A DNA stretch of 36,822 nucleotides from Chitinophagales bacterium (lineage in GTDB: Bacteria; Bacteroidota; Bacteroidia; Chitinophagales; CAIODY01). The translations under genes were made by a program, and so were the position numbers. The DNA lies in assembly GCA_947449695.1 (NCBI GenBank), contig CANFST010000028.1, forward strand, positions 1-36,822. The letters are read 5' to 3'. This document shows, piece by piece, positions 1 to 35,834 of this stretch. The notes under the pieces were generated by a model that was not told where the DNA came from, did no database searches, and was given only the letters and a program-made list of their open reading frames with translations. How positions within the stretch are numbered: the stretch's first letter is position 1; every line of letters begins with the position of its first letter.

Positions 1-3000
1 AAGTAACGGTTACAAACCCAAGTGGTGGCACAACACCTTATTCATATTCGTGGAATACTTCACCAATTCAAAATACTCAAACCGCCAATTCCTTGCCAGC
101 TGGCACTTACATGGTTACTATAAAAGATGTTAACAATTGTTCGCTTACTTCTTCAACGATTGTAACCCAACCAGCAGCACTGTCAAACGTAACGGCATCA
201 ACACTTTTAAATGATTCATGTTTTGGATTCTCAAAAGGAAAAGTGGCGGTTACAAACCCTACTGGTGGTACGACACCTTACTCGTATTCCTGGAATACTT
301 CGCCAATTCAAAATACTCAAACCGCCAACTCCTTACCAGCTGGCACTTACACGGTTACTGTAAAAGATGCGAATAATTGTTCGCTCACTTCTTCGACTGT
401 AGTAACTCAGCCAACCGCATTGTCAAACGTAACTGCATCAACACTTTTGAATGATACTTGCTTTGGTGGAACAATAGGAAAAGTTACGGTAACCACACCG
501 AGCGGCGGCACATCCCCTTATTCTTATAGTTGGAATACCACACCTAATCAAAACACACAAACCGCAACAGGCTTACCAATCGGCACTTACACAGTAGTTG
601 TGAGAGATGCAAATAATTGTTCGCTCACTTCTTCTACCGCAATTACACAACCATCAGGGCTTTCAAATGTAATCGCTTCAACGCTTTCCAACGATTCATG
701 CTTTGGAAGTAGTAATGGGAAAGTAACAGTATCCTCACCAACAGGTGGCACTGCACCGTATAATTATTCATGGAATACAACACCCATTCAAACGACACAA
801 ACGGCTGTGGGATTGACTGCTGGTACTTATACTGTTACTATCAGCGATGCACATCATTGTTCAACTGTAATTGATTCGGCAATTGTAACACAACCATCAC
901 CTTTAGCAAACGTTGTAGCATCAGCAGTTTCTAACGTTTCATGTTTTGGAGGAAGTAACGGAAGTGTAACAGTTTCAAATCCAAGCGGAGGTACAACACC
1001 TTATTCATTTATTTGGAATACATCACCTATTCAAAATACACAAACTGCCAATTCATTGCCAGCAGGCACTTACACGGTTACTGTAAAAGATGCACACCAT
1101 TGTTCACTCAACTCATCCATCAGCATTTCACAGCCCAACGCTTTAAGTAATGTGATAGCTTCGACATTAACCAATGTAAATTGTAATAGCAAAAATACGG
1201 GCAGTGCAACAGTTTCAGCGCCAATAGGCGGAACAGCACCTTATCATTTTAGTTGGAATTCATCACCCACTCAAAATACACAAACTGCCAATTCATTGCC
1301 AGCAGGCACTTTCACGGTTACTGTGAAAGATTCAAACAATTGCAGTTTAACTTCTTCAACAACGATTATCCAGCCTGCACCGCTTGCAAATGTGCTTGCA
1401 TCGGTAGTTTCTAATGTTTCATGCCATGGCGGAAACAACGGAAGTGTAACTTGTACAACACCAACAGGTGCAACTTTACCTTATCATTTTAGTTGGAATA
1501 CAACACCCATTCAACTCACACAAACCGCTACAGGATTGGTTGCTGGTACTTATACTGTTTCAGTGACCGACTCTTTTAGGTGTGATACTTTAACTTCAAC
1601 GATTATTGTTACTGAACCGGCGCCGTTAGCAAACGTAGTAGCATCAACGCTTTTGAACGATTCTTGTTTTGGTTACTCCAAAGGAAAAGTAACTGTAACA
1701 ACCCCAACAGGTGGAACAGCACCATATTTTTATAGTTGGAATTCTTCACCGATTCAAAGTACTCAAACTGCTATAAACTTGCCGGTCGGCACTTATACAG
1801 TAACGGTAACCGATGCACATAATTGCCCTGCAATTTTAGATTCGACCATTGTAACACAACCTAGTGTACTCTCAAACGTAGTGGCATCAGTAGTTTCAAA
1901 CGTTACATGTTTTGGTTTAAATAATGGAAGTGTAACAGTTTCAAATCCAAGTGGTGGCACATCTCCTTATTCTTATAGTTGGAATTCTTCACCTGTACAA
2001 AATACACAAACTGCCAATGCCTTGCCAGTAGGTACTTTCACGGTTACAGTAAAAGATGGCAATCATTGCTCTTTAACTTCTTCAGCAACAATCACACAAC
2101 CAAATACATTAGCAAACGTAGTAGCATCAATGACTTCAGCCATTTCATGTCATGGTGGAAGTAATGGAACTGCAACTTGCACCACACCAACAGGTGGAAC
2201 ATTGCCTTATCATTTTAGCTGGAATACATCGCCCATACAAACCACACAATCGGCTACCAACTTGAGCTATGGCATTTTTACTGTTACTGTGAAGGATTCA
2301 AATAATTGTTCATTAACCGACACCGTATTAATTACGGAACCGGCTGCGATTTCAAATATAACTGCAGCAACTATAACCAATGAGTTTTGTTTTGGTGGTC
2401 ATAATGGAAGTGCATCAGTAAGTACCCCAACAGGCGGAACACCGCCATACACTTATAGTTGGAATTCATTACCAGTTCAAACAACACAATTGGCAGTGAA
2501 TTTATTACCAGGCACTTACACAGTTTCTGTTGCCGATTCACATAATTGTCCGGCAATAACTTCAACAGCAACAATCACCCAACCACCAGCATTGACGGGT
2601 ATTACAGCGTTCACCATCAAAAATTTAACTTGCAGTAGTGGCAATGATGGTATGGTTTCATGCACCACCCCAACAGGCGGAACACCGCCATATAGCTATA
2701 GTTGGAATTCATCCCCCATTCAAACTACGCAAACTGCTATAAACTTGCTAGTCGGCACTTATACAGTAACCATAACCGATGCTCATCAATGCGCTTATTT
2801 CAGTGCTTCGACTGCTGTAACTGCACCGGCTGGTCCGATTAATTCTTTAACTTCTATTGTATTAAAAAATGTAAGTTGCTATGGCAATAAAGATGCTGCA
2901 GCAACTGTGCTTACACCGCTTTATGGTAAACCTCCTTTTTCATATATCTGGAATTCTATTCCATCACAGTTAACACAAACCGCCACTCAATTAGCTGCTG

Positions 3001-3548
3001 GCAATTATAGTGTATCTGTAATAGATAGCTTAGGTTGTGTTCAGATGGGAAATATTATAATAACCCAGCCATTCCCTTTAAAAATCAATATTCATCAAGC
3101 AATTAATATAAGTTGTTATGGTGGAAATGATGGATATATTGTTGCTAATACTGCATGGGGGGGAACCTTACCTTACGCCTATAAGTGGAATACAACACCG
3201 CCACAATATTCGAATTTTGCAACTAATTTAAAGGCTGGTCAATATATTATTGAGGTTACAGATTCAAACAGATGTACTACTAGTGATACCGTAATTTTGA
3301 ATCAACCCCCTATACTTCAACCCGGAATTATTTCTACATTCAATAATCCTTGTAACTCAGTAAGCGGTGGTTGGGCAGATATTTCAAATACAACTGGAGG
3401 AACATCACCATATCAATATTTATGGAATTCAACACCAGCACAAACAGGCCATAAAGCTTTGCATTTACAAAGCGGCAACTATACAGTTACAATAACTGAT
3501 TCAAATTTTTGCTCAACAACTCAGTCAACAACAATAAATACTGAACCT
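1..3548 (+). repeat. Tandem ~246-bp DNA repeats encoding SprB units
   Basis: The protein repeats are also visible as DNA repeats. Blocks such as CAAACCGCCAA followed by TCCTTGCCAGCTGGCACTTA recur nearly unchanged in the upstream units, for example around 75-112, 315-352, 1045-1075 and 1285-1315. The last four units (from about 2800) match each other and the upstream ones much less. This suggests recent duplication or gene conversion in the upstream part and older divergence towards the C-terminus. Confidence 0.85.
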
Positions 3549-4076
3549 AGCGTTCAGGCTATTGCTTACACTGATACAACAATTAATTTAGGTGATAATT
3601 TTACTTTAAATGCTTATCAAAGCATTGGAATTAATTCTGCTACTAACTACCAATGGTATTCATCTTCGGATGTTTTATTAGGTAGTTCCAACACATTAAA
3701 TATTTCACCTATCAAAGATGATTACTATTATTTGAAAATATTTAATGACAGTCTTTGCCCCTCAATTGATAGTGTGTTTATCAAAGTTGCCCAATGCGGA
3801 ATTGTTATTTTACCCAATGCGTTTTCTCCAAATGGTGATGGCTTGGATGATGTATTTAAAATAATCAATCCCGAAGATATTGAATCAATTACTCGTTTTG
3901 AAGTGTTTAACAGATGGGGAAATCCTGTTTTTACAACTTCTAACAAATATGAAGGTTGGGATGGATTCATTAATGGCAAACCTCAACCACTTGATACGTA
4001 TGTATATAATTTACATGCAAAATGCTTTGGAGGCAAACAAATTCACCTAAAGGGAGACGTAACACTAATGCGATAA
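1..4076 (+). CDS. Giant SprB-repeat adhesin, T9SS type B cargo (5' truncated)
   Basis: The reading frame is open from base 3 of the window, so the N-terminus lies outside; the first ATG at 93 falls inside a repeat and is not a credible start. About 15 tandem repeats of roughly 82 residues (the first is cut) end near base 3548. Each carries a Cys near its start, a GGTxPYSYSWN core, a QTAxxLPAGTYTV segment and a second Cys, the pattern of SprB repeats. An Ig-like linker follows (about 3549-3790). The last ~95 residues start with LPNAFSPNGDGLDDVF and end in VTLMR, matching the gliding-motility-associated C-terminal domain used for type IX secretion. Known members are cell-surface adhesins involved in gliding or attachment. 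The role is inferred from architecture; no partner gene is visible here because the upstream side is outside the window. Confidence 0.93.
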   Translation, partial: VTVTNPSGGTTPYSYSWNTSPIQNTQTANSLPAGTYMVTIKDVNNCSLTSSTIVTQPAALSNVTASTLLNDSCFGFSKGKVAVTNPTGGTTPYSYSWNTSPIQNTQTANSLPAGTYTVTVKDANNCSLTSSTVVTQPTALSNVTASTLLNDTCFGGTIGKVTVTTPSGGTSPYSYSWNTTPNQNTQTATGLPIGTYTVVVRDANNCSLTSSTAITQPSGLSNVIASTLSNDSCFGSSNGKVTVSSPTGGTAPYNYSWNTTPIQTTQTAVGLTAGTYTVTISDAHHCSTVIDSAIVTQPSPLANVVASAVSNVSCFGGSNGSVTVSNPSGGTTPYSFIWNTSPIQNTQTANSLPAGTYTVTVKDAHHCSLNSSISISQPNALSNVIASTLTNVNCNSKNTGSATVSAPIGGTAPYHFSWNSSPTQNTQTANSLPAGTFTVTVKDSNNCSLTSSTTIIQPAPLANVLASVVSNVSCHGGNNGSVTCTTPTGATLPYHFSWNTTPIQLTQTATGLVAGTYTVSVTDSFRCDTLTSTIIVTEPAPLANVVASTLLNDSCFGYSKGKVTVTTPTGGTAPYFYSWNSSPIQSTQTAINLPVGTYTVTVTDAHNCPAILDSTIVTQPSVLSNVVASVVSNVTCFGLNNGSVTVSNPSGGTSPYSYSWNSSPVQNTQTANALPVGTFTVTVKDGNHCSLTSSATITQPNTLANVVASMTSAISCHGGSNGTATCTTPTGGTLPYHFSWNTSPIQTTQSATNLSYGIFTVTVKDSNNCSLTDTVLITEPAAISNITAATITNEFCFGGHNGSASVSTPTGGTPPYTYSWNSLPVQTTQLAVNLLPGTYTVSVADSHNCPAITSTATITQPPALTGITAFTIKNLTCSSGNDGMVSCTTPTGGTPPYSYSWNSSPIQTTQTAINLLVGTYTVTITDAHQCAYFSASTAVTAPAGPINSLTSIVLKNVSCYGNKDAAATVLTPLYGKPPFSYIWNSIPSQLTQTATQLAAGNYSVSVIDSLGCVQMGNIIITQPFPLKINIHQAINISCYGGNDGYIVANTAWGGTLPYAYKWNTTPPQYSNFATNLKAGQYIIEVTDSNRCTTSDTVILNQPPILQPGIISTFNNPCNSVSGGWADISNTTGGTSPYQYLWNSTPAQTGHKALHLQSGNYTVTITDSNFCSTTQSTTINTEPSVQAIAYTDTTINLGDNFTLNAYQSIGINSATNYQWYSSSDVLLGSSNTLNISPIKDDYYYLKIFNDSLCPSIDSVFIKVAQCGIVILPNAFSPNGDGLDDVFKIINPEDIESITRFEVFNRWGNPVFTTSNKYEGWDGFINGKPQPLDTYVYNLHAKCFGGKQIHLKGDVTLMR

Positions 4077-9880: not shown

Positions 9881-11041
9881 CTACTCTGCCACTTTCAACC
9901 ATTTTTCAGGATATTGTTCAAAGTTAGCAGCAGCTTCATAATCAGAATAACTGCATGGTACCATTTGATGCATGCCTTTATTTCCTTTAGGCACTTTCAT
10001 CCACCAACGGCTGCTTTTGCGGCTTTTATAAAAATCAATATTCTGATTTTCACTTTGGAAATGAACAGTGTATTTCAAGAAATCCTTTTCGCTGATGATA
10101 GGATAATCACCTACTCTGCCCATTACACCATCCATAAAATACCAGATAATTTGAGCAGCTAATTGTGTGGTTTGATTGCGTAAATCTAAATGAGGATTCA
10201 CTTCATACAACCCGAAACTACTTACTTTATCGCTCATGCCAGCATATCGAGCTAAGGCACAAATTTCATTTCCAAACAAACCATTAGGTGAAGCATTGCC
10301 ATTACCTGGTGCTTCGCTGCAACGAACAATACTCATATCCATCGAAAACAAATCGGCATCACGTACAAATGGTTCCATCTCTCTGTAATCTTCTTGCAAA
10401 GCACCCAGGCGAACTTGGTCGAAATTCATTTGTCCTAAAATTTTCAGCAAATTAAAATCAACCAGATACGATTGATAACCCAGTAAAGTAAAATTCTTTA
10501 AAAAATTAGGTGATTGTGTAAAAACCTGCGACAGAAAATTGTTTGATTTTATTTCTTCCTGCAAAAAACTTACATCCAATCGGGCATCAGCATGAACCAT
10601 GTTGATTTCCATTTCCATATCTTTATAACCCATGAATTGCCCATACAGCAAGTCATTCGAGCCACCAATGATAACAGGAATAATATCATTGCGTAATAAA
10701 AAAGCAACCACATTGCCCAAAGCAAAATAAGTATCACGAGGCGATGAGCCTTCTTTGATGTTGCCTAAATCTGCAATTTTTACTAAATAATCAAATGAGG
10801 ATAAAGCATACAATTCGCTGCGAACCAAATCAGGCGCATCCATACAACCTATGTTATTAAAAGCATTGCGTTCTTCGCCTACACCAATAATAGCAATTCT
10901 CACATCTTCCAAATCGGGCAATTCCTGTTGATGAATCAACATCGTATTACCTAATTGATAAGGCGAAAAATTATCGTTCTTAGCAAGAATAGTGTCTTTT
11001 ACAGGCACTAAAAATTCTTTTATTAAATCGAAATCACTCAT
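9881..11041 (-). CDS. Arginase/formimidoylglutamase-fold protein with degenerate metal site
   Basis: The ureohydrolase fold is recognisable through the ordered motifs, but metal ligands are missing. The GGDHS motif reads GGSND (residues 126-130), DAHxD reads DARLD (152-156), and SxDxD reads SMDMS (233-237); the later Glu in LYEVNP (Glu280) is kept. Of the six ligands of a classic binuclear Mn site, three aspartates (152, 156, 235) remain, while two His and one Asp are Asn129, Arg154 and Ser237. Automatic annotation would call it formimidoylglutamase, but canonical Mn-dependent hydrolysis looks unlikely. It lies 21 bases after galE, and no hut genes are present. A structural or regulatory role, or different chemistry, is inferred. 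Confidence 0.8.
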   Translation of the reverse strand: MSDFDLIKEFLVPVKDTILAKNDNFSPYQLGNTMLIHQQELPDLEDVRIAIIGVGEERNAFNNIGCMDAPDLVRSELYALSSFDYLVKIADLGNIKEGSSPRDTYFALGNVVAFLLRNDIIPVIIGGSNDLLYGQFMGYKDMEMEINMVHADARLDVSFLQEEIKSNNFLSQVFTQSPNFLKNFTLLGYQSYLVDFNLLKILGQMNFDQVRLGALQEDYREMEPFVRDADLFSMDMSIVRCSEAPGNGNASPNGLFGNEICALARYAGMSDKVSSFGLYEVNPHLDLRNQTTQLAAQIIWYFMDGVMGRVGDYPIISEKDFLKYTVHFQSENQNIDFYKSRKSSRWWMKVPKGNKGMHQMVPCSYSDYEAAANFEQYPEKWLKVAE

Positions 11042-11062: not shown

Positions 11063-12085
11063 TTATTTAGTAGCCATTTGTTTTTCCCAATTCCAGGCTG
11101 AAAGCATCATCTGTTCAATGTTTCGCTGTGGTTGCCATTGCAAAATGTCTTTCACTTTATCAATGTTGGCATACACTGCAATCACATCACCATCGCGTCT
11201 TTCTCCCACTTTATAATTCAGTTTTGTACCACTCACTTTTTCAAAAGCGTTGATGGCTTCTAACACTGTAACACCATTTCCACTGCCCAAATTAAATACA
11301 TCCACATTTTTTTTCGGTGCATCATTTAATAAATATTTCATCGCACAAGTGTGGGCATGTGCAACATCCGATACATGTATGTAATCGCGAACGCAACTAC
11401 CATCACGTGTATCATAATCACCACCAAACACAGTTAATTGCTGCATTTTTCCAATAGCAGTTTGTGTAATGATAGGCACTAAATTATTAGGTTTATCATA
11501 AGGCACTTCACCAATGATGGCCGATTCATGTGCTCCAACCGGATTAAAATAACGCAACAGAATGAAATTGATATCGGCATGAATGGCTGCAAAATCTTTA
11601 ATCATTCTTTCGCCAATTTGCTTGGTAAAGCCATAAGGCGATTCGGCATATTTCAAAGTGGTAGCTTCAGTTACAGGCAATTCATCTGCATTGCCATACA
11701 CCGAACAACTGGATGAAAAAACAAATTCTTTAACACCAAATTGAGCAGTTGCTTTTAAAATATTTACCAGCGAAGCTATATTGTTATGATAATACAACAA
11801 TGGCTCTGCAACTGATTCGGGAACAGATTTCAAAGCAGCAAAATGAATGATGCCATCAATGTTTTTTTCTTCTTTAAAAATATTTTCTACCGCATCCCAA
11901 TTGCACAAATCAACCGCATAGTTTTTTATTTTTTTGCCTGTGATTTTTTCAACGCCATCTAACTGTGTGGCACGGCTTCGCAAATGATTATCAACGCTAA
12001 TCACTTCAAACCCATGTTCGATTAAATCAACCAAAGTATGACTACCAATATATCCGCAGCCGCCAGTCACCAATATTTTTTGCAT
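11063..12085 (-). CDS. galE: UDP-glucose 4-epimerase
   Basis: The ATG at 12085 gives MQKILVTGGCGYIGSH and 340 residues, the usual GalE length; an in-frame TTG seven codons earlier is not needed. It has the NAD-binding GxxGxxG, the SSSCSVYG serine motif, catalytic YGFTK, the NLGSG motif and the C-terminal RRDGD segment. GalE interconverts UDP-glucose and UDP-galactose in the cytoplasm and supplies galactose for surface glycans. It lies 33 bases after the helicase gene and 21 bases before the arginase-fold gene, so it is probably co-transcribed with both. Confidence 0.95.
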   Translation of the reverse strand: MQKILVTGGCGYIGSHTLVDLIEHGFEVISVDNHLRSRATQLDGVEKITGKKIKNYAVDLCNWDAVENIFKEEKNIDGIIHFAALKSVPESVAEPLLYYHNNIASLVNILKATAQFGVKEFVFSSSCSVYGNADELPVTEATTLKYAESPYGFTKQIGERMIKDFAAIHADINFILLRYFNPVGAHESAIIGEVPYDKPNNLVPIITQTAIGKMQQLTVFGGDYDTRDGSCVRDYIHVSDVAHAHTCAMKYLLNDAPKKNVDVFNLGSGNGVTVLEAINAFEKVSGTKLNYKVGERRDGDVIAVYANIDKVKDILQWQPQRNIEQMMLSAWNWEKQMATK

Positions 12086-12118
12086 CTGAATTTTTGAATT
12101 GAACAACGAAAATAATAA

Positions 12119-14308
12119 TTAATCTACAACATATTTAGTGGCATTTTTCAAATGCGCCAAAGCCATTCTGATTTCGCCAAAAGTAAAATCATCACCCAAT
12201 TCTGATTTGATTGGACTCATTTTATCGAAACCTATTTTTTTAGCAACGGCTGCAATTTGTAATAATTTATCGTTTGAAATAAATTTATGAATATCCAGTT
12301 CACCACTTTCAATATAAACCGCCAAATGGCTTTCAATAGTAGTTTTGGAGAGACTTCGTTGTTTTGAAATATCCTCTACACTCATTCCAGCTTTATAAAA
12401 ATTGTAAGTCTCTTTATGCGTATCGCCTTTAGCAGTTTTGCGTTGAATTTTTTCTTTCAGTTCGTTGGAGGTTTGCTTTCTTTCAAACGAATCGCCTTTG
12501 TAAAAAATGGTTTCGTTGTATTGCAACTTTTGCAATTGCTCAATTTTATTCCACCACAGGCTTTCAATTTCAACAGCTTCTTTTAAATATTGTTTCACTT
12601 TTGGCTTGCCATACAAATCGGCAATATGAGCATTTAATGGCTTGATAAATTTAGTGTGCAACTCGTTGCAATAGTATGGTATGGCTCGTTGCAACAAATC
12701 ATTCAACTTCTCAAAATCATCTGCCAGCAAGGCTTTCTGCAACTGCGGCATAAATTTATCAGAAGTGTCGGATAAATTTTTATTGCTATCAGCAATTAAA
12801 TTTATCATGGTTTGTGCTTTTTCTTTTTCAGGCAATTGTTTGTTCTCCACCAGCATTTTCAATTCATCCACACTTTTGTTCATTCTGTTCCAGTCAAAAG
12901 TTTTCACCAAAACAGTTTTTTGATACACCTTCTTTTCGTCTTCCAGCAAGTGTTCCAGCTCTTCTGTCTGGTTTTGCAATTGTTCAAATGCAATAATGCG
13001 TTCGTCGGTTGTTACAGCCGATGCTGAAATATTCGAACTCAAAAATAAGCCTTCTATATCTGTGCAACGACTTAAAGCAACATACACTTGCCCAGGTGCA
13101 AACGATTGACCAGCATCAATCACAGCTTTTTCAAATGTTAAACCCTGACTTTTATGAATAGTAATTGCCCAGGCTAATTTGATAGGAAAATGAGTGAAAG
13201 TACCAATCACATCTTCTTCAATTTTATTGGTTTCGCCATTCAGTTTATACTTCACTTTTTTCCACGTTTCGGTTCGCAATTCAAAATCCTGATTGTTGTC
13301 TTTAAATCGTACCGTTATTTTATCATCGCTTATTCGCTTGATGGTGGCCAATTTGCCGTTGTAATATCTTTTTTCAATGTCGCTATCGTTTTTAATAAAA
13401 ATCACCTGTGCACCAACTTTCAAATGCAAATCGTATTCCATCGGAAATTCACGAGCTTCAAAATCGCCAGTAATTTCACCTTCGAAAGTGTGCAGCTCGG
13501 CATCTAATCTTTGCAATTGTGTCTGATTAATTTTATCAGCTTTCCAGTTGTGTGTGGTGAGTGTGATATGATTTTCCAATCCTTCCAAAGCCTCGGGCTG
13601 AAAGCGATTGTTGAGCATTTTATAATCATCCTCTTCCATTTTATTGTTTCTGATTTTATTCAAAAGAGAAATAAAACGCTCTTCGTTTTGCCTGTAAATT
13701 TTCTTCAACTCAATATAAACCGGCATGTTTTCTTCCAACACTTTGGCACTAAAAAAGAAAGGTGTTTCGTAAAAATCTTTTATCTCGTCCCACTCTTTCA
13801 CCACCGGTGGCAACTGAAACATATCGCCAATAAACAAAACCTGCACACCGCCAAAAGGCTCATTGCGCTGCCTGCGGAAGCGGCGAAGAATGGTATCAAT
13901 ACAATCCAGATAATCGCAACGCAACATACTCACCTCATCAATAATCAACAATTCCAGCTCACGATATAAATCAATTTTGAGTTGATTAAAATGTGTTCGT
14001 TGAAAAAAAGAATTGGCATCTACCGAATTGTTTTCACCCCCGAATCCACGGGTATATGCTTCAGGAATAAATGGCTGAAATGGCAATTGAAAAAAAGAAT
14101 GCAACGTCATGCCGCCAGCGTTGATAGCTGCAACGCCAGTAGGTGCAAGCACAACGGTGTTTTTTTGTGAATGCGATTGAATGTATTTTAAAAAAGTAGT
14201 TTTGCCTGTGCCTGCTTTGCCTGTGAGGAAAATATTCTTGTTGGTATGCAAAACAAATTCGGCAGCCAGTTTAAACTCTTCATTAAATTCGGTGAAAGTT
14301 TCTTGCAT
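12119..14308 (-). CDS. PIF1/RecD-like superfamily 1 DNA helicase with C-terminal HTH
   Basis: The 729-residue protein has Walker A (GKAGTGKTT, residues 30-38), Walker B (LLIIDEVS, Asp124-Glu125), a TLHSFF motif, the GDMFQLPPV motif III, the KSQGLTFEKA motif and the VALSRC motif VI near the UvrD-C-like end. These place it with PIF1-like 5'-3' helicases. After a helical linker, the last ~90 residues form a helix-turn-helix unit (AGMSVEDISKQRSLSKTTI) like the HTH tail found on Bacteroidota PIF1 and RecQ homologues. It probably acts on replication forks or structured DNA. It heads the minus-strand run with galE. Its start borders the repeat-rich region. Confidence 0.92.
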   Translation of the reverse strand: MQETFTEFNEEFKLAAEFVLHTNKNIFLTGKAGTGKTTFLKYIQSHSQKNTVVLAPTGVAAINAGGMTLHSFFQLPFQPFIPEAYTRGFGGENNSVDANSFFQRTHFNQLKIDLYRELELLIIDEVSMLRCDYLDCIDTILRRFRRQRNEPFGGVQVLFIGDMFQLPPVVKEWDEIKDFYETPFFFSAKVLEENMPVYIELKKIYRQNEERFISLLNKIRNNKMEEDDYKMLNNRFQPEALEGLENHITLTTHNWKADKINQTQLQRLDAELHTFEGEITGDFEAREFPMEYDLHLKVGAQVIFIKNDSDIEKRYYNGKLATIKRISDDKITVRFKDNNQDFELRTETWKKVKYKLNGETNKIEEDVIGTFTHFPIKLAWAITIHKSQGLTFEKAVIDAGQSFAPGQVYVALSRCTDIEGLFLSSNISASAVTTDERIIAFEQLQNQTEELEHLLEDEKKVYQKTVLVKTFDWNRMNKSVDELKMLVENKQLPEKEKAQTMINLIADSNKNLSDTSDKFMPQLQKALLADDFEKLNDLLQRAIPYYCNELHTKFIKPLNAHIADLYGKPKVKQYLKEAVEIESLWWNKIEQLQKLQYNETIFYKGDSFERKQTSNELKEKIQRKTAKGDTHKETYNFYKAGMSVEDISKQRSLSKTTIESHLAVYIESGELDIHKFISNDKLLQIAAVAKKIGFDKMSPIKSELGDDFTFGEIRMALAHLKNATKYVVD

Positions 14309-26143: not shown

Positions 26144-29100
26144 CTACCTCAACAAAGTAATTGTTCCTATTTTACTAAAATTTTTGCCATCATAACTCAT
26201 TCCTTTCCATACGGATTCATTGGTGAATTGTGCTTCAATTTTCCAGACATAAGCATCTTGCGGCATTAACTCTCCTTTAAATGTTCCATCCCAGAATTCA
26301 GTTGGAGAGCCATGTTCATCCAATGCTGTGCTTTCCCACAATTTTTCACCCCATGTTGAATATACCCACACATGGTAAGTTGCTAAACCATAGCCTTTGG
26401 GTTTGAAAACTTTTACATCATCGTTGTTGCCTGCATTTGGCGACATGGCATTTGGTACATACAAGCCTGTTGTATATTCTGTGTGAATTTTTTTGAGTGT
26501 AGTATCCATACAACCATCAGCATTCACGGCAATCAATTCAACTTGATAATCACCCGTTGTTCCGTAGATATGGGTTGTATTAACATCATTTGTGGTAACT
26601 GATGCAGAGCCATCGCCAAAGTTCCAGATGAATTGCGAAGCGAATTGTGAATTGCTTGTAAAGTTCACATTTACCGCTGGTGGTGGGCTATTGGCATCAT
26701 CATATATAAATGAAGCAACAGGCGTTTGCAATACATTAATATAACCAACTCTGTGAATACTATCAATACACACATGATTCAAACCCTCCACTCTTAGTGT
26801 TACATCATACAATCCGGCATTTTGATAAGTATAATGCGGTGTGAAATTATTTGTTGCATTGCCGCCATCGCCGAAAGTCCAGTATTGATAATAGCTTGCA
26901 GTTGTTGTATCACTGAATGTTACAAACAAAGTTTGACAACCTGTTGCAGGTGTTGCTGTAAATCCTGAATGCAATGGTGGATAGTCAGTTATTTTTTTTG
27001 AAGTTGTGTCATAACAACCAAAAACATTTCCAGCAATTAATTGCAAATTATAATTGCCACCTGCTGTATAATTGAAGGTTGGATTAGAAATAGTTTGCGT
27101 ATTTCCTTGTCCATCATTCCAAGTATAAGCATTTGCAGCAATTGAAAAATTATTTGTAGAAATTGTGAATGGCTCAACACATGGTGCTGAACCCGTTATG
27201 CCAAAAGCCGCTGTAGGCTTAGGATAAACAGTGATTGTAAAATTAGCTGTATCAGCACAACCAAAATTATTTGAAGCAATGTATTGCAAAGGATAATTTG
27301 CAACCGAATAATTTACGCCAGCATTTGTATAAACATAATTGAAATTAGCTTGTGAAGTATTGCTCGTGTTTCCATCACCAAAAGTCCAACTATGAAATGT
27401 AGCAGCAATAGTATTATTGGCAATTTGAACGGATAAAGGCTGACATCCAAAAACAGGTGATGGTGTTACATGCAATACAGGGGTTGGTAAAATATGTATT
27501 ACTTTTTTTGCCGAATCTGTACAACCATAAGTGGATGATGTACCAATCAAAGTTACGGTGTATAAGCCACTAGCAGTGTATTGATGTACAATTGGATTCA
27601 ACAAACTTGTTGTGCCATCACCTAATTTCCAATTAAAACTGCTCAAAAAATTATTAACAAAAGAAAAAGCAATTGGTTTGTTTGCACACACCGAATCTTT
27701 GGAATAAATAATACTCAAAGATGGATTTGGTTGCACAGTGATAGAAACCGCTATGGGCAAGCCTGCACAGCTATTGGCAGTTGGAGTAATGTTATAAGTT
27801 GCTGTGCCAACTGCATTTCCTGTGGTGGTTAATATTTGATTGATAACATTCCCAATGCTATTAAAGCCGCCAGCAACGCCACTTTGCACAATTGTCCAAG
27901 CGTAAGTGGTTCCACTCACTGCACTTGTTAAATTGATAGTTGGTTTTGTTCCCGAACAAATTGTTTGAGCCGAAGGAGTTGTGATAACAACTGGGATTGG
28001 GTTCACTGTTGCCACTACATTCAAAGGATTTCCAGCACAACCATTGGCTGTGGTTGTAATAGTATAAGTTGCCGATGCAATGGTTGTTCCCAATGAATTT
28101 AAAGTTTGTGCAATTACACTTCCACTTCCACCTGAAGCACCGCTTACATTCGAATTGGCTACTATCCAGCTAAATGTTGAACCTGTAACCGATGATGTTA
28201 AATTAATTGAAGTGGCTGTGCCCGAGCATATAGTTTGATTGGCTGGCGTTGCTGTAACCACTGGAATTGGATTGACTGTAATTGTAACAGTAATAGCATT
28301 TCCAAGGCAACCATTTGCTGTAGGGGTGATGGTATAAATGCAAGTACCTGTTGAGTTGCCTGTGGTTGAAATGTGATGATGAATCAAACTGCCATTGCCT
28401 GCAACTGCACCACTAACGCCATTTTGAGCCACGGTCCAGCTGAAAGTTGTGCCTACCACATTGCTGCTCAAAGAAATGTTGGATGAATCGCCAGAGCAAA
28501 TTGTTTGTGCAGTTGGTGTTGCAGTAACTAATGGAATTGGACTTACTGTTATTGGAACATTTATCGAAGTGCCTGTACAGCCACCAACAGCAGGCGTTAC
28601 AGTGTAAGTGGTTGAACCTGCAACGGTTGATGTGGCTGTTAATGTTTGATTGATGTTTGCCCCTGAAGCATTAGATGCACCTGCTACCTGACTTGATGAT
28701 TGTGTCCAAGAAAAACTTGTTCCAGCTACATTACTTGATAAACTGATTGCAGTTGAATTGCCTGAACAAATTGTTTGTGCAGTTGGTGTTGATGTAACTG
28801 TAGGAATTGGATTCGCAATTACAACCACATTTATCGGTGTGCCAATGCAACCATTTGCAGTTGGTGTAATCGTGTAAGTGGCTGTACCACTGGTGTTTCC
28901 AGTCGTTGTTAAAGTTTGACTGATGATAGTTCCTGAACCACTTGTTGCGCCTGTTACGCCTGATTGCACAACTGTCCAACTGAAACTTGCACTGGTATCA
29001 GTGCTAGTTAATGTGATGTTTGGAGCAGTGCCAGTGCAAATAGATGCAGAGCTTGGAGTTGCTGTAACATTCGGTACATTGTTCACCGTGATATTCACTG

Positions 29101-32100
29101 GAACAGCTGCACCAGCGCAGCCTGCATAATTTGGCGTAACTGTATAATTTGCAAATCCAACATGAGGATTTACTGTAAATAATGTTTGATTAATCGTTGA
29201 ACCAATGGCACTCGATGCACCTGTAACATTGTTTTGCGTAACTGTCCATGAGAAAGTTGTTCCTGCAATCGAACTGCTCAAATTCACTGTTGGCGCACTT
29301 CCCGAGCAAAGTGTAACCGCCGCAGGTGTCGCCGTTGCAACTGGCATCAAACCAACATTCACTGTGTCTTTTATTGAAGAACCAACGCATCCATAAGTAG
29401 ATGGAGATGGTGTGATTAAATAAATGGCGCTGCCTGGTGTTGCGCCTGTCAAACTCAATGCCTGACTGATTCCCAAGCCCGAACCATTGCTTGCACCTGT
29501 AACACCATTTTGTGTAACCGTCCAACCGAAAGTTGTTCCTGCTACTAAACTACTCAAACTAATATTGGTTGCATTGCCCGAACAAATGCCTTGTGGCGAA
29601 GGTGTTGCAATCACATTCGGTACTGGATAAACTGTAATCGCAGCAGTTGCTGTATCGAAACTACAACCATTATTAACGCTCAAATAAATTGTGTAAGTGC
29701 CAGCTTGTGTGTAGATAGTTGAATCAACATTTTTGTTAGAATAATTTCCATTGCTAAAATTCCAACCAATATTATTTCCACCAGTTGAAAAATTATGAAC
29801 TACTACTTTCAAAGGCGCACAACCGTTTGTAGGTGTAACATTAAAGAATGCATTCACTGTGTTTGGATGAACCAAAATTGTGTGTGAAGTCGTATCATCA
29901 CCACAAGCATTGTGAACGATTAAAGTAATGATGTAAGTGGTATCTAGTGTTCCTGTATGATAGACATGTACTGGAGGAGTTTTGGAAGTATCAGTCGCAC
30001 TACCATCACCAAAACTCCATAAATAACTTGTTGGATTTCCAACTGAAACATTTGAAAAATGAATTGGTAAAGGTGAACATCCAACACTTAAATTGGTTCC
30101 GAAACTGGCATGTGGCGAAGGATGCACCAAAATTGAATCTTGATAAGAAACATTGCCACAAACATTTGAAGCAATCAAATAAACATGATAAAGTGTATCG
30201 CCTTTAAATGGTTCGGGATAAGTTGTTGTTGGAGGAACTGTACCAGTATATTGATTGCCGTTGTAGCCTAAATCCCACAAGTAGCTTGGATTGTAGCCAC
30301 TTCCAAAATTTTGAAAATTCACTACCAAAGGTCCACAACCCACATGCGGATTCAATGTAAATGAATCTTTCGGCACTGTAACGGTTGTTATGGTGTGTGT
30401 GATGGAATCAATGCAACCATCTGTAGTGGTGCAAATTAATTTCACCTGGTAAGTGCCAACTGCCGTATAACCATGATTAGGACTGATGATTCCAGTATGT
30501 GCGCTACCATCACCCCAATTCCAATCATTCGTTACAATTGAACCTGTTGATGTATTGGTGAATAATGCACCTACATTCAAACAAGCAGGAGAAGGATTGG
30601 TGAAATTCACCACAGGCAATGGTTTTACGGTAATGACAACATTGTTAGAATCAATACAATTGTGAATATCCGTTTCAGCAATGATGTAAGTTGTTGTTAC
30701 AGTTGGTGTAACCACATCATTCGGAGATGTAGAGCTATAGCCGCTTGGGGTACTGTGCCAAGTGTATGTGCTACCCAAAACTTGTGCCGCACCAATATTT
30801 GCAGATTGATTTTTACAGATGGTTTGATTGATGCCTGATAACGCAGCAGGTCGAGGGAACATGTGCACAAACACACTATCAAACGGACTATAACATCCTC
30901 CGATAAATTGTTGGCAGTAATAATAACCAGTATCAGGGTATAATGAATGAGGATGATTTGGATTTTGTAATGATGAAGAAAACCCATTTGGTCCATTCCA
31001 AGTATATGTTGCGCCTGCATTTCCGCTTGCAGTTAAACTAATAGTTGAATACCAACACACAGGGTTATTACTTCCTAAAGTAGGCGCAACAGGCAATGGT
31101 ACTACTGTTACAAGCATTGTATCTTTTTTATAACAACCAGTGATGTTGTCCGTTTGCAACAAAATATAAGTTGTTGTGGCTGTTGGTGAAGCTGTTGGAG
31201 TGGCTGAAGTAGCAGTGTTTAAGCCTATTACAGGACTCCATGCATAACTATAACCAGCGGTTGCACTCGTTCCGATGGTTGCACTTGTTCCAAAACAAAT
31301 AGTTTGGTCAAGCCCTGCATTTGTTGCTGGTAGTGGATTTACAGTTACCAAGGTGCTATCTGTAATTGAGCAACCTTGTGTATTTACAGCCGTAACAAAA
31401 TATTTTGTAGTTACCGTTGGTGAGGCAATCACCACTGCGCCAGTTGTAGTGTTTAAGCCTATTGCAGGACTCCAAACATAACTCGAAGTTCCACCCGAAA
31501 CATGAATCGTATCCACAGTTTGATTTTTACAAACAGTAGAATCAGAATGCATAATTGTCAAATCAGCAATTGGTTTTACAACCGCCACCACATATTGTGT
31601 ATCCTGGCAATTCGCTCCATTTTGTCCAGTAACAACATAAGTTGTGGTTACGGTTGGTGAAGCAATTACAACCGAGCCAGTTGTGGTATTCAAGCCTGTT
31701 GCAGGACTCCAGCTATAAGTTGATGCACCCCCTGCTGTTAGTGTATTTGGATGTCCTGGGCAAGTAACAGGCAGAGATGCTGATGCAGTAACGGTTGGTA
31801 ACCCATTCACATTTACAACAACAGCAATGGAATCTTTGCAATTGTTGATGGAAGTGCCAATCAAAGTGTAAGTTGTTGTAGTTGTTGGTGATGCTGTTAC
31901 AGTTGATGAAGTGGTAGAACTTAATCCTGTAGTAGGTTTCCATTGATAAGTATTTGCTCCAAATGCAGTTAATGCAACTGAATTTCCTAAGCAAATAAAA
32001 TTATTTGTTGATGGTGAAACGGATAAATTTGGTAAAGGATAAACTGTAACATAAGTAGATTGTGTACTGCTGCACGTATTAGGAGCAGTTCCTGTAACTG

Positions 32101-34582
32101 AAAAATTTCCTGAAGAAGTTGGAATTGCTGAAACATTTGCTCCAGTCGTACTTCCCAAGCCCGAACCACTCCATGAATAAGTTGTTCCAGCAATTGTACT
32201 TGTCGAATTTAAAGCAACTGAATTTCCATAACATACTGCATTAGGTATTGCGCTGATAGTTACAACTGGCGCAGGTTTTACGTTTACAATCACGGAATCA
32301 CTTCCACTACAACCGTAATAATCTGAAACGGATAAATAGTAGGTTGTAGTAGTTGAAGGATTTACTGATGGACAGCAATAGCTTGACGCACTCGGCGACC
32401 ATGAATAATAATAAGAAGGTGTTCCGCTTGAAACACTTGAATTCAATATAGTTCCGCCAACATTATCACAAATGGTTTGGTCAGCGCCTGCATTTACAAC
32501 AGGAATTGGATAAGCTGAATAACCCACAGAAGCAGATGAGCTGCCACATTCATTCGTGGCTGTTACTTGAATTGAATGACTGCCTGATGTATTAAATGTA
32601 ACATTTCCTGGTGAAGCGCCTGTTGCTGTTGCTGGTGTTCCACCAGAATAGGTCCAAGCATAATTAGATATAGTTCCCCCACAAGGAGAAATGCCAAAAT
32701 AACTAGCTGGACTTGTTGTTGCAGGAGTACAACTACCGTATGATGCATATGTAGTGATGTAAGGAACATCTTTTACCACCGTCGAGTTTGTTGTTGAATA
32801 AGTTCCACAAACATTGGTAACACTTAATGTGATGGCATAATTACCTGGTGTGCTGAATGTTAAAGATGGATTGGCAGAAGTATTGGAGCCGCTGCTAAAA
32901 ATATAACTTCCCGAACTATAATAAACACAACCTGATGTGTAGCTAAGTGACCAACTATACCCCAACGAACTACAACCTGCACTACCCAACGAAGTATTAG
33001 TAATATTGATGACTGATGGCGAACATGCATTTGGTGGAGTCATTGTGAATGAAGGCGTTGGTGGCGGCACTACGCAAAGTATTTGCACCACAGTATCCAA
33101 TCCGCATCCATTCGTTGAGCCAGTAATCATTGTAATGGTATAGCTGCCAATGGTGGTGAAAGTTGCACTCAATGAATTTGAACCTGCTGACCATAAATTT
33201 GGGTCAGTCAACCCGAAAGTATTTCCAAAAGAACTTCCAGAAGTCCAGCCAGTTGCTGGAGAAATACTCCAAACTGCTGGTTGTGTGTTTTGATTACATA
33301 TTCCTGAAATTGGATCAATATCATAGCCAACTGTTGTATTGGTAAATGTGTTAGAACTATTTACACAAATCACTGGTATATATGAAAAAGAACCGACAGG
33401 TGGGGCAGAAACATAAATCGGAACAACCGATCCAGCACTTGTTCCACAAGGGTTTGTAGCTGTGATTGATGCTGAATAAGAATTCGGATAACTATTGGTT
33501 CCATTTGAACTTGTTGTACCACATGATGAAGTGTTGAATGTGTGTGATACAGTTGTTGGAGGTGGATGGGTAAAATTTACAGGAGCACTTCCATCATTGA
33601 ACACCACAGTATATGTAGTTCCTGGTGGATTATTTGCAGTTCCTGTAATTGGGAATGTTAAAGTATTTGGTCCGCAAATGGTTGTATTGCCTGGGTTTCC
33701 GATACCTACTGCAGGATTTGACCCCACGAAAACATTATAGTTAATTGTATTCGTACAACCATTTCCACCTGTAACAGTATATGCCAAAGTATAAATTCCG
33801 ATGGCGTAAGAATGCGTTTGTGTTGGTCCCCATGAAGTTGTTGAAGTAAAATTTGGCGAACCATCCCCCCAATTAATTACATAGTTGGTATTTGTTGCAG
33901 TGGTTGTTGAAGTATTAGTAAAGGTGAATGTTGCAGTTGAATTGCTTGTACATTGTTTGAAATAAGGTTGCCCATTAATTGTACTTGAGCCGGTGCCACC
34001 CATTGCTGCGCTTGGTAATTGCTTCACAGTAACATTATGTGAAACTGTTGCAGAACAACCATTCGAACTAGTTACTGTAAATGTTGCTGAAAAAGTTTGA
34101 TTACTATTTCCAATGGCTGATGAGTACGTATTGGTAGGACTCAACAGAGTAGAAGTATTACCATCGCCAAAAGCCCAAGCATAATTTAAACCAGTGCCTG
34201 TGGCAGTTCCCGTAAATACAATTGGAGTATTTGCACATGGTGGTATTGTTGGTGTGAATGTAAAAGCTGCAGTGGGTAAAGGTTTTACAGTAACCACGAT
34301 TGTTGTCGAATCTTTGTGATTATTGGCACAAGTACCAACTACTTTATAAGTTGTTGTTACCAGTGGTGATGCAGTAACAGTTGCGCCCGTTGTGCCACTC
34401 AATCCTGCGGCTGGCGACCATACATACGTAGAAGCTCCACTGGCTGTGATGGTGGCTGTTGTTTGCAATCTGCAAATGGACGCCGAAGTTGGTGAAACAT
34501 TAACTGTGCATTGCGCCGTAACAAAATTTCTAACACAAAAAAATAAAAAAAATCCAACTAATAGTTTTTTCCAAAAAGACAT
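26144..34582 (-). CDS. Giant PKD-repeat surface protein, T9SS type B cargo (2812 aa)
   Basis: The intact frame begins with a signal peptide (MSFWKKLLVGFFLFFCVR, cut near Ala23-Gln24). Many PKD and PKD-like units follow, with FGDG/WGDG motifs near residues 148, 1357, 1524, 2319, 2390, 2565 and 2655. A stretch with ASPTVTTTYxV repeats covers about 880-1180. Seven tandem ~90-residue units cover about 1653-2285. The last ~100 residues (LYVPNAMSPNAGNNDD to GTITLLR) are the gliding-motility-associated C-terminal sorting domain. The protein is almost free of charged residues and rich in Thr/Ser/Asn/Pro. It should be exported by the T9SS as an adhesin or filament. It lies 58 bases after the PorP/SprF gene, its likely dedicated partner, and ends at a terminator. 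Confidence 0.95.
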   Translation of the reverse strand: MSFWKKLLVGFFLFFCVRNFVTAQCTVNVSPTSASICRLQTTATITASGASTYVWSPAAGLSGTTGATVTASPLVTTTYKVVGTCANNHKDSTTIVVTVKPLPTAAFTFTPTIPPCANTPIVFTGTATGTGLNYAWAFGDGNTSTLLSPTNTYSSAIGNSNQTFSATFTVTSSNGCSATVSHNVTVKQLPSAAMGGTGSSTINGQPYFKQCTSNSTATFTFTNTSTTTATNTNYVINWGDGSPNFTSTTSWGPTQTHSYAIGIYTLAYTVTGGNGCTNTINYNVFVGSNPAVGIGNPGNTTICGPNTLTFPITGTANNPPGTTYTVVFNDGSAPVNFTHPPPTTVSHTFNTSSCGTTSSNGTNSYPNSYSASITATNPCGTSAGSVVPIYVSAPPVGSFSYIPVICVNSSNTFTNTTVGYDIDPISGICNQNTQPAVWSISPATGWTSGSSFGNTFGLTDPNLWSAGSNSLSATFTTIGSYTITMITGSTNGCGLDTVVQILCVVPPPTPSFTMTPPNACSPSVINITNTSLGSAGCSSLGYSWSLSYTSGCVYYSSGSYIFSSGSNTSANPSLTFSTPGNYAITLSVTNVCGTYSTTNSTVVKDVPYITTYASYGSCTPATTSPASYFGISPCGGTISNYAWTYSGGTPATATGASPGNVTFNTSGSHSIQVTATNECGSSSASVGYSAYPIPVVNAGADQTICDNVGGTILNSSVSSGTPSYYYSWSPSASSYCCPSVNPSTTTTYYLSVSDYYGCSGSDSVIVNVKPAPVVTISAIPNAVCYGNSVALNSTSTIAGTTYSWSGSGLGSTTGANVSAIPTSSGNFSVTGTAPNTCSSTQSTYVTVYPLPNLSVSPSTNNFICLGNSVALTAFGANTYQWKPTTGLSSTTSSTVTASPTTTTTYTLIGTSINNCKDSIAVVVNVNGLPTVTASASLPVTCPGHPNTLTAGGASTYSWSPATGLNTTTGSVVIASPTVTTTYVVTGQNGANCQDTQYVVAVVKPIADLTIMHSDSTVCKNQTVDTIHVSGGTSSYVWSPAIGLNTTTGAVVIASPTVTTKYFVTAVNTQGCSITDSTLVTVNPLPATNAGLDQTICFGTSATIGTSATAGYSYAWSPVIGLNTATSATPTASPTATTTYILLQTDNITGCYKKDTMLVTVVPLPVAPTLGSNNPVCWYSTISLTASGNAGATYTWNGPNGFSSSLQNPNHPHSLYPDTGYYYCQQFIGGCYSPFDSVFVHMFPRPAALSGINQTICKNQSANIGAAQVLGSTYTWHSTPSGYSSTSPNDVVTPTVTTTYIIAETDIHNCIDSNNVVITVKPLPVVNFTNPSPACLNVGALFTNTSTGSIVTNDWNWGDGSAHTGIISPNHGYTAVGTYQVKLICTTTDGCIDSITHTITTVTVPKDSFTLNPHVGCGPLVVNFQNFGSGYNPSYLWDLGYNGNQYTGTVPPTTTYPEPFKGDTLYHVYLIASNVCGNVSYQDSILVHPSPHASFGTNLSVGCSPLPIHFSNVSVGNPTSYLWSFGDGSATDTSKTPPVHVYHTGTLDTTYIITLIVHNACGDDTTSHTILVHPNTVNAFFNVTPTNGCAPLKVVVHNFSTGGNNIGWNFSNGNYSNKNVDSTIYTQAGTYTIYLSVNNGCSFDTATAAITVYPVPNVIATPSPQGICSGNATNISLSSLVAGTTFGWTVTQNGVTGASNGSGLGISQALSLTGATPGSAIYLITPSPSTYGCVGSSIKDTVNVGLMPVATATPAAVTLCSGSAPTVNLSSSIAGTTFSWTVTQNNVTGASSAIGSTINQTLFTVNPHVGFANYTVTPNYAGCAGAAVPVNITVNNVPNVTATPSSASICTGTAPNITLTSTDTSASFSWTVVQSGVTGATSGSGTIISQTLTTTGNTSGTATYTITPTANGCIGTPINVVVIANPIPTVTSTPTAQTICSGNSTAISLSSNVAGTSFSWTQSSSQVAGASNASGANINQTLTATSTVAGSTTYTVTPAVGGCTGTSINVPITVSPIPLVTATPTAQTICSGDSSNISLSSNVVGTTFSWTVAQNGVSGAVAGNGSLIHHHISTTGNSTGTCIYTITPTANGCLGNAITVTITVNPIPVVTATPANQTICSGTATSINLTSSVTGSTFSWIVANSNVSGASGGSGSVIAQTLNSLGTTIASATYTITTTANGCAGNPLNVVATVNPIPVVITTPSAQTICSGTKPTINLTSAVSGTTYAWTIVQSGVAGGFNSIGNVINQILTTTGNAVGTATYNITPTANSCAGLPIAVSITVQPNPSLSIIYSKDSVCANKPIAFSFVNNFLSSFNWKLGDGTTSLLNPIVHQYTASGLYTVTLIGTSSTYGCTDSAKKVIHILPTPVLHVTPSPVFGCQPLSVQIANNTIAATFHSWTFGDGNTSNTSQANFNYVYTNAGVNYSVANYPLQYIASNNFGCADTANFTITVYPKPTAAFGITGSAPCVEPFTISTNNFSIAANAYTWNDGQGNTQTISNPTFNYTAGGNYNLQLIAGNVFGCYDTTSKKITDYPPLHSGFTATPATGCQTLFVTFSDTTTASYYQYWTFGDGGNATNNFTPHYTYQNAGLYDVTLRVEGLNHVCIDSIHRVGYINVLQTPVASFIYDDANSPPPAVNVNFTSNSQFASQFIWNFGDGSASVTTNDVNTTHIYGTTGDYQVELIAVNADGCMDTTLKKIHTEYTTGLYVPNAMSPNAGNNDDVKVFKPKGYGLATYHVWVYSTWGEKLWESTALDEHGSPTEFWDGTFKGELMPQDAYVWKIEAQFTNESVWKGMSYDGKNFSKIGTITLLR
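27728..29623 (-). repeat. Seven tandem ~271-bp units within the PKD protein
   Basis: Each unit codes for about 90 residues with the pattern (I/V)PxVTATPxxQTICSG, GTTFSWTVxQxGVxGA, and TxTYTITPTANGCxG. The first unit starts at 29623 and the seventh ends at 27728. The units are clearly related but not identical in DNA, so the array is older than the SprB array at the left end of the window. Confidence 0.85.
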
Positions 34583-34640
34583 AAATTAAACATTCAAAGG
34601 TTGAGGAATTAGGTTTTGATTTTTTCAAATGGAGAAATTT

Positions 34641-35714
34641 CTAAAATGAAAAGCAATTCATTCTTTTGTTGCTATTCTTATTTTTATGCATATAAATATC
34701 TTTAAACCAAAAGAACAAGCCAATTTCATGTGCGCCAGGTGCTGAACTTCCTAATTTGTTAATCGTAATATCGTAACTATAGCACACTTTCATTAATGTT
34801 GCATCACCCATCGGCACTTCCAATCCAATATCAGCTACCAAAGCATCAACATCTTTTGATAGCCCAGGTAAACTTCTACTTCTAAAAAATAAACCTCCGA
34901 AAATTGGACTTTTCACAGCATTCACTCCGACTACAACCTGACGAAATTTATCTTGCGCTTCAAACAAAAATGCAGGGACTAACAAACCTGAATATTTTCC
35001 TGACAAAGAATAGTTGAATGGAATTATCACATTGCCTTGCGATGAAAATTTAATCGGCAATTTCGCATCAACACCCATCAATGATTGATCAGGACTTGTA
35101 ATGTGATGAAAAGCAATTGCAAAATTAGAGGTGATTTTATATCGCTTATTCATCTTTCTGAAATAGAAATTCTTGACCATCGCACTGCCTACACTAAAAT
35201 CAACAAAAGATTTACTTTGGTCTGGAGTTGGCACTGTACCTATGTTTGTTGGGGTAATCAAACCATATCGAGCATCTAATTGGTCAGCAAAAACTAATTT
35301 ACTAAAGTCTAATCTTTGAGTAAAAACGGTAGTTTGAAAACCAACTTGGACTATAAAATCTCGTGGTTTCAATGTGATGCGATAAGCATAGGCACCGCCT
35401 ATACTTTGCGTTGTTAAATATCCTTCACCTTCTAAATCGCTACTTGCTACAATGCCCAAACCGCCGCCATAGTTCAATGCTTCCACATCAGCAGCACAAT
35501 CAAATGTGTTAAACTTGCCTGGTACTTTTGTCCAAAGATTTCTATATAAAGCACCAATTCGTAAGCCATCATTGATTCCAACTAATGCTGGATTATTTTG
35601 AATAGGTTGATTATAAAATTGCGAAAAATTAGGGTCTTGTGCATACAACAATTTGTTGCACAACAAAGTTAGAACACTTATGAGGATAAGGTGTTGAAGT
35701 AGATTTTTTTTCAT
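34641..35714 (-). CDS. Type IX secretion system PorP/SprF-family membrane protein
   Basis: The ATG at 35714 gives 357 residues with a signal peptide (MKKNLLQHLILISVLTLL, ending YAQ). The family opening DPNFSQFYNQPIQNNPALVG follows, then alternating beta strands of an outer-membrane protein, and an end with YSYDITINKLG and HEIGLFFWF. PorP/SprF proteins are needed for secretion or surface display of their neighbouring giant cargo (as SprF is for SprB). The gene precedes the PKD protein with a 58-base gap, the classic arrangement. An 11-base inverted repeat reaches its start codon. Confidence 0.93.
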   Translation of the reverse strand: MKKNLLQHLILISVLTLLCNKLLYAQDPNFSQFYNQPIQNNPALVGINDGLRIGALYRNLWTKVPGKFNTFDCAADVEALNYGGGLGIVASSDLEGEGYLTTQSIGGAYAYRITLKPRDFIVQVGFQTTVFTQRLDFSKLVFADQLDARYGLITPTNIGTVPTPDQSKSFVDFSVGSAMVKNFYFRKMNKRYKITSNFAIAFHHITSPDQSLMGVDAKLPIKFSSQGNVIIPFNYSLSGKYSGLLVPAFLFEAQDKFRQVVVGVNAVKSPIFGGLFFRSRSLPGLSKDVDALVADIGLEVPMGDATLMKVCYSYDITINKLGSSAPGAHEIGLFFWFKDIYMHKNKNSNKRMNCFSF

Positions 35715-35779
35715 GATAATCGGGGGAGTAAATTTACAACAAAAGTCTAAAAAGTAGAAGTTTTGCCGCCCGATTATCA
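35714..35779 (-). promoter_or_regulatory. 11-bp inverted repeat around the porP/sprF promoter and start
   Basis: On the plus strand TGATAATCGGG (35714-35724) is matched perfectly by CCCGATTATCA (35769-35779), 44 bases apart. One arm ends on the A of the porP start codon. The enclosed segment holds a TAGACTTTTG promoter-like stretch (minus strand). It may be an operator for a dimeric regulator or, if transcription starts further upstream, a stem that hides the start codon. Confidence 0.5.
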
Positions 35780-35834
35780 CCTGTTTAAACTTTCATTTTT
35801 TACAAGTAACCAGAAAGAAGTTACTCAAAACTGT

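Follow-up and report, generated by a model that had tools for sequence, protein, structure and literature searches.

Why is a gene for an arginase-fold protein kept intact when half of its metal ligands have been replaced? The gene that raises this question, here called ARG, lies at 9881–11041 on the complementary strand of a 36,822-nucleotide stretch of DNA from a Chitinophagales bacterium, the whole of which is referred to as the window. A previous sequence-only reading had described ARG as intact, and rightly so: the open reading frame has an ATG start and no internal stops, and encodes 386 residues of which 48–302 match the Pfam Arginase family (PF00491) with a score of 75.9 bits, where the cut-off is 22. 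Comparison with the orthologue in a congener (98% identical) gives a dS of 0.39, a dN of 0.010, and a dN/dS of 0.027, and ARG is therefore under strong purifying selection. No signal peptide is apparent by eye and the protein is thus presumably cytosolic. A single-sequence AlphaFold2 model of the whole protein has a pLDDT of 37.8, and a scan of genome contigs with the ARG protein as the single query returned one near-copy only.

Metal-site residues in ARG and its relatives

Human arginase binds metal A through His101, Asp124, Asp128, and Asp232 and metal B through His126, Asp124, Asp232, and Asp234. This six-ligand pattern, H-D-H-D-D-D, reads N-D-R-D-D-S in ARG and departs from that of a binuclear ureohydrolase. 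The counterpart of GGDHS is GGSND (residues 126–130; 10652–10666, complementary strand as for all ARG features), with N129 in place of the metal-A His101; the counterpart of DAHxD is DARLD (residues 152–156; 10574–10588), with R154 replacing the metal-B His126 and with D152 and D156 kept; and the counterpart of SxDxD is SMDMS (residues 233–237; 10331–10345), with S237 replacing the metal-B Asp234 and with D235 kept. E280 (10202–10204), the counterpart of arginase Glu277, is present as previously claimed, though not strictly kept, being Glu in 104 of the 163 relatives described below. Sequence alignments with solved formimidoylglutamases place the three ARG motifs opposite GGxHx or GGDNS, DAHxD, and SxDxD, which confirms that three of the six ligands are substituted and that they are not simply located elsewhere.

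The three substitutions are not equally informative. At the first of these positions, Asn is also found in HutG of B. subtilis (3m1r, GGDNS) and in the T. cruzi formiminoglutamase (2a0m/4mxr, GGGND), the activity of which is confirmed (PMC12203737), and the Zymomonas mobilis arginase has a GGDCL motif there and still binds two metals (PMC6988801). N129 alone is weak evidence because genuine formiminoglutamases share it, which leaves two telling losses, namely the replacement of His126 by Arg154 and of Asp234 by Ser237, the ligands that only metal B uses.

These two losses extend across the family. From 238 retrieved proteins 168 distinct sequences were kept, and the 163 scoring over 150 bits were counted as relatives. 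None has all six metal ligands together; His is kept at position 154 in seven (otherwise Arg, Lys, or other residues) and Asp at 237 in three (otherwise Ser, Gly, or Asn), such that both metal-B-only ligands are absent in 153. Position 129 is Gln in 89, His in 40, and Asn in 18, with Glu also occurring, and neither the window's genus nor the sister genus has the metal-A His. Of the three substituted positions, 154 and 237 therefore show losses throughout the family, and N129 is of no diagnostic value. All seven canonical arginase paralogues fetched from ARG-bearing genomes read HDHDDD and lack the C-terminal extension of ARG. Judging from these alignments, the ARG family very probably cannot form a binuclear metal cluster and would be no ureohydrolase, and formimidoylglutamase and arginase would both be wrong names for it. 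The earlier view that ARG is kept for a purpose other than standard binuclear ureohydrolysis is supported by the family-wide ligand losses and by purifying selection.

An alternative is an enzyme that acts on a new substrate with a single metal, or with none; the three aspartates and His, Gln, or Asn at position 129 would then hold one metal at site A. D152 is kept in 144, D156 in 138, and D235 in 145 of the 163 relatives (about 85–89%), all three together in 129, and His at 129 plus the three aspartates in 37; the joint retention would fit a residual metal site, and to that extent it also speaks against the accessory role that we propose below. However, position 129 drifts among His, Gln, Asn, and Glu, at least two of the aspartates are lost in 21 relatives, Glu280 is inconstant, and the residues that vary least are elsewhere. 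Among the residues checked, G254, G268, F337, W346, and C363 are present in all 163 relatives, and since these lie outside the old active site, three of them in the C-terminal extension, we count them for repurposing and against a mononuclear enzyme, which we consider unlikely.

ARG and known ureohydrolases

The closest solved relatives of ARG by sequence are the HutG proteins (TIGR01227; B. subtilis 3m1r, V. cholerae 1xfk, and T. cruzi 2a0m/4mxr). One rival reading is that ARG is a working formimidoylglutamase or arginase despite its substitutions. Like ARG, 3m1r and 2a0m have Asn at the first ligand position, and this Asn in active formiminoglutamases, together with the GGDCL motif of the Z. 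mobilis enzyme, is in favor of such a function, as is the presence of urocanase (HutU) in 53 of 60 relatives in an order-level genome set, including the window's genome. ARG differs from HutG in lacking the metal-B His and Asp, in carrying an 80-residue extension, in its location outside hut loci, and in its score against the NCBIfam HutG model, which at 88.5 bits is 140 bits short of the 229.15 cut-off.

The genomic evidence also opposes a HutG function. FtcD provides another route for removal of the formimino group and is present in 46 of the 60 relatives, with all six from the window's family among them; it can do this step in the window's genome and 45 others, and because the window's genome has both urocanase and FtcD, there is no need to assume that ARG is its HutG. 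None of 49 genomes has ARG and hutU within 10 kb of each other, and two genomes (G034 and G046) have a canonical arginase-fold gene 1–2 kb from hutU and ARG elsewhere. Complete genomes that lack HutU (G022, G024, G035, and G047) carry ARG as well. We therefore rejected ARG as this genome's HutG, given the presence of FtcD, the separation from hutU, and the score below the TIGR01227 cut-off, and with both metal-B-only ligands lost a working ureohydrolase is very improbable. The warning that automatic annotation as formimidoylglutamase would mislead was well founded, on the grounds of both score and FtcD.

Two arginase-fold pseudoenzymes offer parallels. MetCb of metformin hydrolase is, as ARG would be, a bacterial arginase-fold pseudoenzyme without metals; it lacks five of the six ligands, and adjoins and caps the active MetCa (PMC11271267). 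ARG could similarly assist an active ureohydrolase as a subunit without catalytic activity of its own, but it has no such partner, as it is the sole arginase-fold match in its own genome at E≤0.001, and an adjacent active partner is not seen in the relatives; this explanation is largely refuted and we give it hardly any credence. The second parallel is an arginase-like protein of T. brucei in which the Mn cluster is absent (Hai et al. 2015, as cited in PMC10820115), an orphan pseudoenzyme that keeps the arginase fold after loss of key catalytic residues, as ARG does. The T. brucei protein is eukaryotic and from a single lineage, whereas ARG is bacterial and class-wide and is set apart by its extension and its genomic setting. 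Few, isolated examples of pseudo-ureohydrolases are known so far, and ARG is one that purifying selection has retained across about 93% of the genomes sampled from its class.

A conserved C-terminal extension and class-wide presence

Three features were missed by the sequence-only reading: ARG is near-universal in its class, it has a conserved C-terminal extension of its own, and it recurrently neighbours genes of the type IX secretion system (T9SS). The extension corresponds to residues 307–386 (80 residues; 9884–10123), is absent from canonical ureohydrolases, and is strongly conserved, with F337, W346, and C363 invariant and W347 and Y368 nearly so. Modelled alone it is predicted to form four strands and two helices, with a moderate pLDDT of 74. 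With this model Foldseek gave no match below E 0.58 and the best VIA-align Z score was 3.9, and a Pfam search of the extension gave no match below E 0.08. Weak, repeated matches to PARP1/2 entries (Z about 2.5) pointed to a WGR domain, which we did not accept as evidence of identity.

ARG matches are present in 58 of the 60 order-level relatives, of which two (G002 and G005) are just a weak match and a contig-end fragment, and in 274 of 295 genomes of the class, presumably Bacteroidia in view of its T9SS genes, at E≤1e-20 (~93%). The matches listed outside the class are ordinary arginases, which stop at about residue 320 or before it and do not have the extension. The ARG family is vertically inherited and mostly single-copy. 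In a quick tree, which has long branches and in which fine placement is unsure, two canonical arginase sequences split off from ARG with full support.

Gene neighbourhoods and the T9SS

Up to 20 kb around ARG was collected from 119 other genomes to give 120 loci, in which neighbouring genes were clustered and the families named by NCBIfam; because some of the genomes are related, the resulting counts should not be treated as independent. ARG adjoins T9SS genes in 53 of the 120 loci, in two arrangements. In 39 loci (about 31 family codes) it is beside gldK, mostly with gldLMN, and the usual order on a single strand is topA-ARG-porP-gldK-gldL-gldM-gldN, with a topA-ARG gap that is often <60 bp and, typically, about 145 bp between ARG and porP. 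A further 14 loci, which represent about 9 family codes and come mainly from the window's order, have ARG beside convergent murF-gldJ-porP followed by porU and porV. In the set of 60 relatives, 19 of 54 genomes have no more than 10 kb between ARG and gldJ; for the controls HutU and FtcD the counts are 0 of 48 and 0 of 40 (Fisher p 1e-9). In the family tree the gldKLMN-linked members cluster (11 changes versus 32.8 in shuffles) and the gldJ-linked members are dispersed, for the most part within the window's order. As would be expected of a T9SS component, members of the family are recurrently linked to T9SS core genes, though such linkage is absent in the window, where GldJ and GldM are encoded on other contigs of the genome.

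Co-occurrence with the T9SS is less than strict. SprA, the T9SS translocon, is present in 286 of the 295 genomes of the class, and 271 genomes have both ARG and SprA, three ARG only, 15 SprA only, and six neither (Fisher p 5e-6, to be taken as a guide only as the genomes are related). Genomes G061 and G618 have ARG without SprA, and G618 also has no GldK over the cut-off; the bond between ARG and the T9SS is therefore not strict.

The reading that we tentatively prefer, with somewhat under even confidence, is that ARG, a pseudo-ureohydrolase, now serves in the cytosol as an accessory or regulator of the T9SS/gliding and envelope machinery. Retention of the fold, the three acidic residues, and the invariant module points to a platform for binding or sensing that is built from the arginase fold and the C-terminal extension, and T9SS adjacency in two arrangements suggests the T9SS or the envelope as its setting. 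By analogy with other arginases ARG would act in the cytosol as a homo-oligomer; it could contact the cytosolic face of the motor, for instance, and is perhaps tuned by a ligand or by one metal bound at the three aspartates that are left. Any physical link between ARG and the T9SS would be one suggested by gene adjacency. A stronger version, in which ARG is an unrecognised, near-class-wide cytosolic T9SS/gliding component or regulator with a dismantled catalytic site and a C-terminal module that binds, seems rather unlikely.

A role in the T9SS has to be weighed against the finding that ARG is closest to topA or convergent to murF, so a transcript may not be shared with the T9SS genes. ARG could instead be a pseudo-ureohydrolase with a housekeeping role unrelated to the T9SS, the adjacency reflecting an inherited topA-linked order next to gldKLMN plus one rearrangement to murF-gldJ. 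The tight topA-ARG spacing is consistent with this, as are the retention of ARG without SprA in G061 and G618, the existence of T9SS genomes without ARG, and the lack of a T9SS neighbour in about half of the fetched loci. It does not readily account for two different T9SS neighbourhoods in different lineages (the 31 and 9 family codes noted above), for control genes that are never near GldJ, or for decayed members of family f17 that are still beside gldJ, and although a serious contender we consider it doubtful. A repurposed accessory or regulator would differ from the established constituents of the T9SS core loci (gldKLMN and gldJ-porP-porU-porV), to which ARG is a frequent neighbour yet has no homology to known T9SS parts. 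The T9SS is an intensively studied secretion and motility machine, and ARG, repeatedly next to its core genes, is not mentioned in the literature searched: we found no T9SS work in the open literature naming an arginase-fold protein and no relevant paper there joining formimidoylglutamase or arginase with gldK or the T9SS, and with subscription papers mostly outside the search novelty is unproven. The frequent T9SS adjacency of a protein that has lost its metal site hints at a second job for ARG that has so far gone unstudied.

Within the window, a galE-type UDP-glucose 4-epimerase gene (11063–12106, complementary strand) is 21 bp upstream of ARG and likely co-transcribed with it, and next to galE, on the side away from ARG, is a gene for a PIF1-like helicase with a C-terminal HTH_40 domain (12119–14308, complementary strand). 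The sequence-only reading took this operon to be informative, but it is kept in the congener (98% and 89% identical, respectively) and not in the next genus, and we ruled it out as a functional clue as the linkage stops at the genus level.

The window also encodes T9SS cargo. The gene at 93–4076 on the forward strand encodes a 1327-residue protein that has SprB repeats as well as a CHU_C T9SS C-terminal signal, and at 26144–35780 on the complementary strand a 2812-residue PKD-repeat protein is encoded next to a PorP/SprF gene (34641–35780), a typical pair of T9SS adhesin and PorP. Many of the loci that lack T9SS neighbours, 18 in number, have a divergent NAD-dependent epimerase (HpnA-like) gene directly upstream of ARG (e.g. 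L204:10656–11675). In loci L085–L161 a conserved array upstream of topA contains groEL, two small genes, a 170-residue gene without an NCBIfam name, and a sigma-54-type regulator, followed by topA, ARG, and the T9SS genes. Very divergent members with the family code f17 (E 1e-12 to 1e-25) lie some 2.6 kb away from gldJ in G034, G046, and G058, three of the four genomes concerned, and L221, L223, and the C19 match of G058 are strongly decayed ARG relatives with short or partial matches, in which position has outlived sequence.
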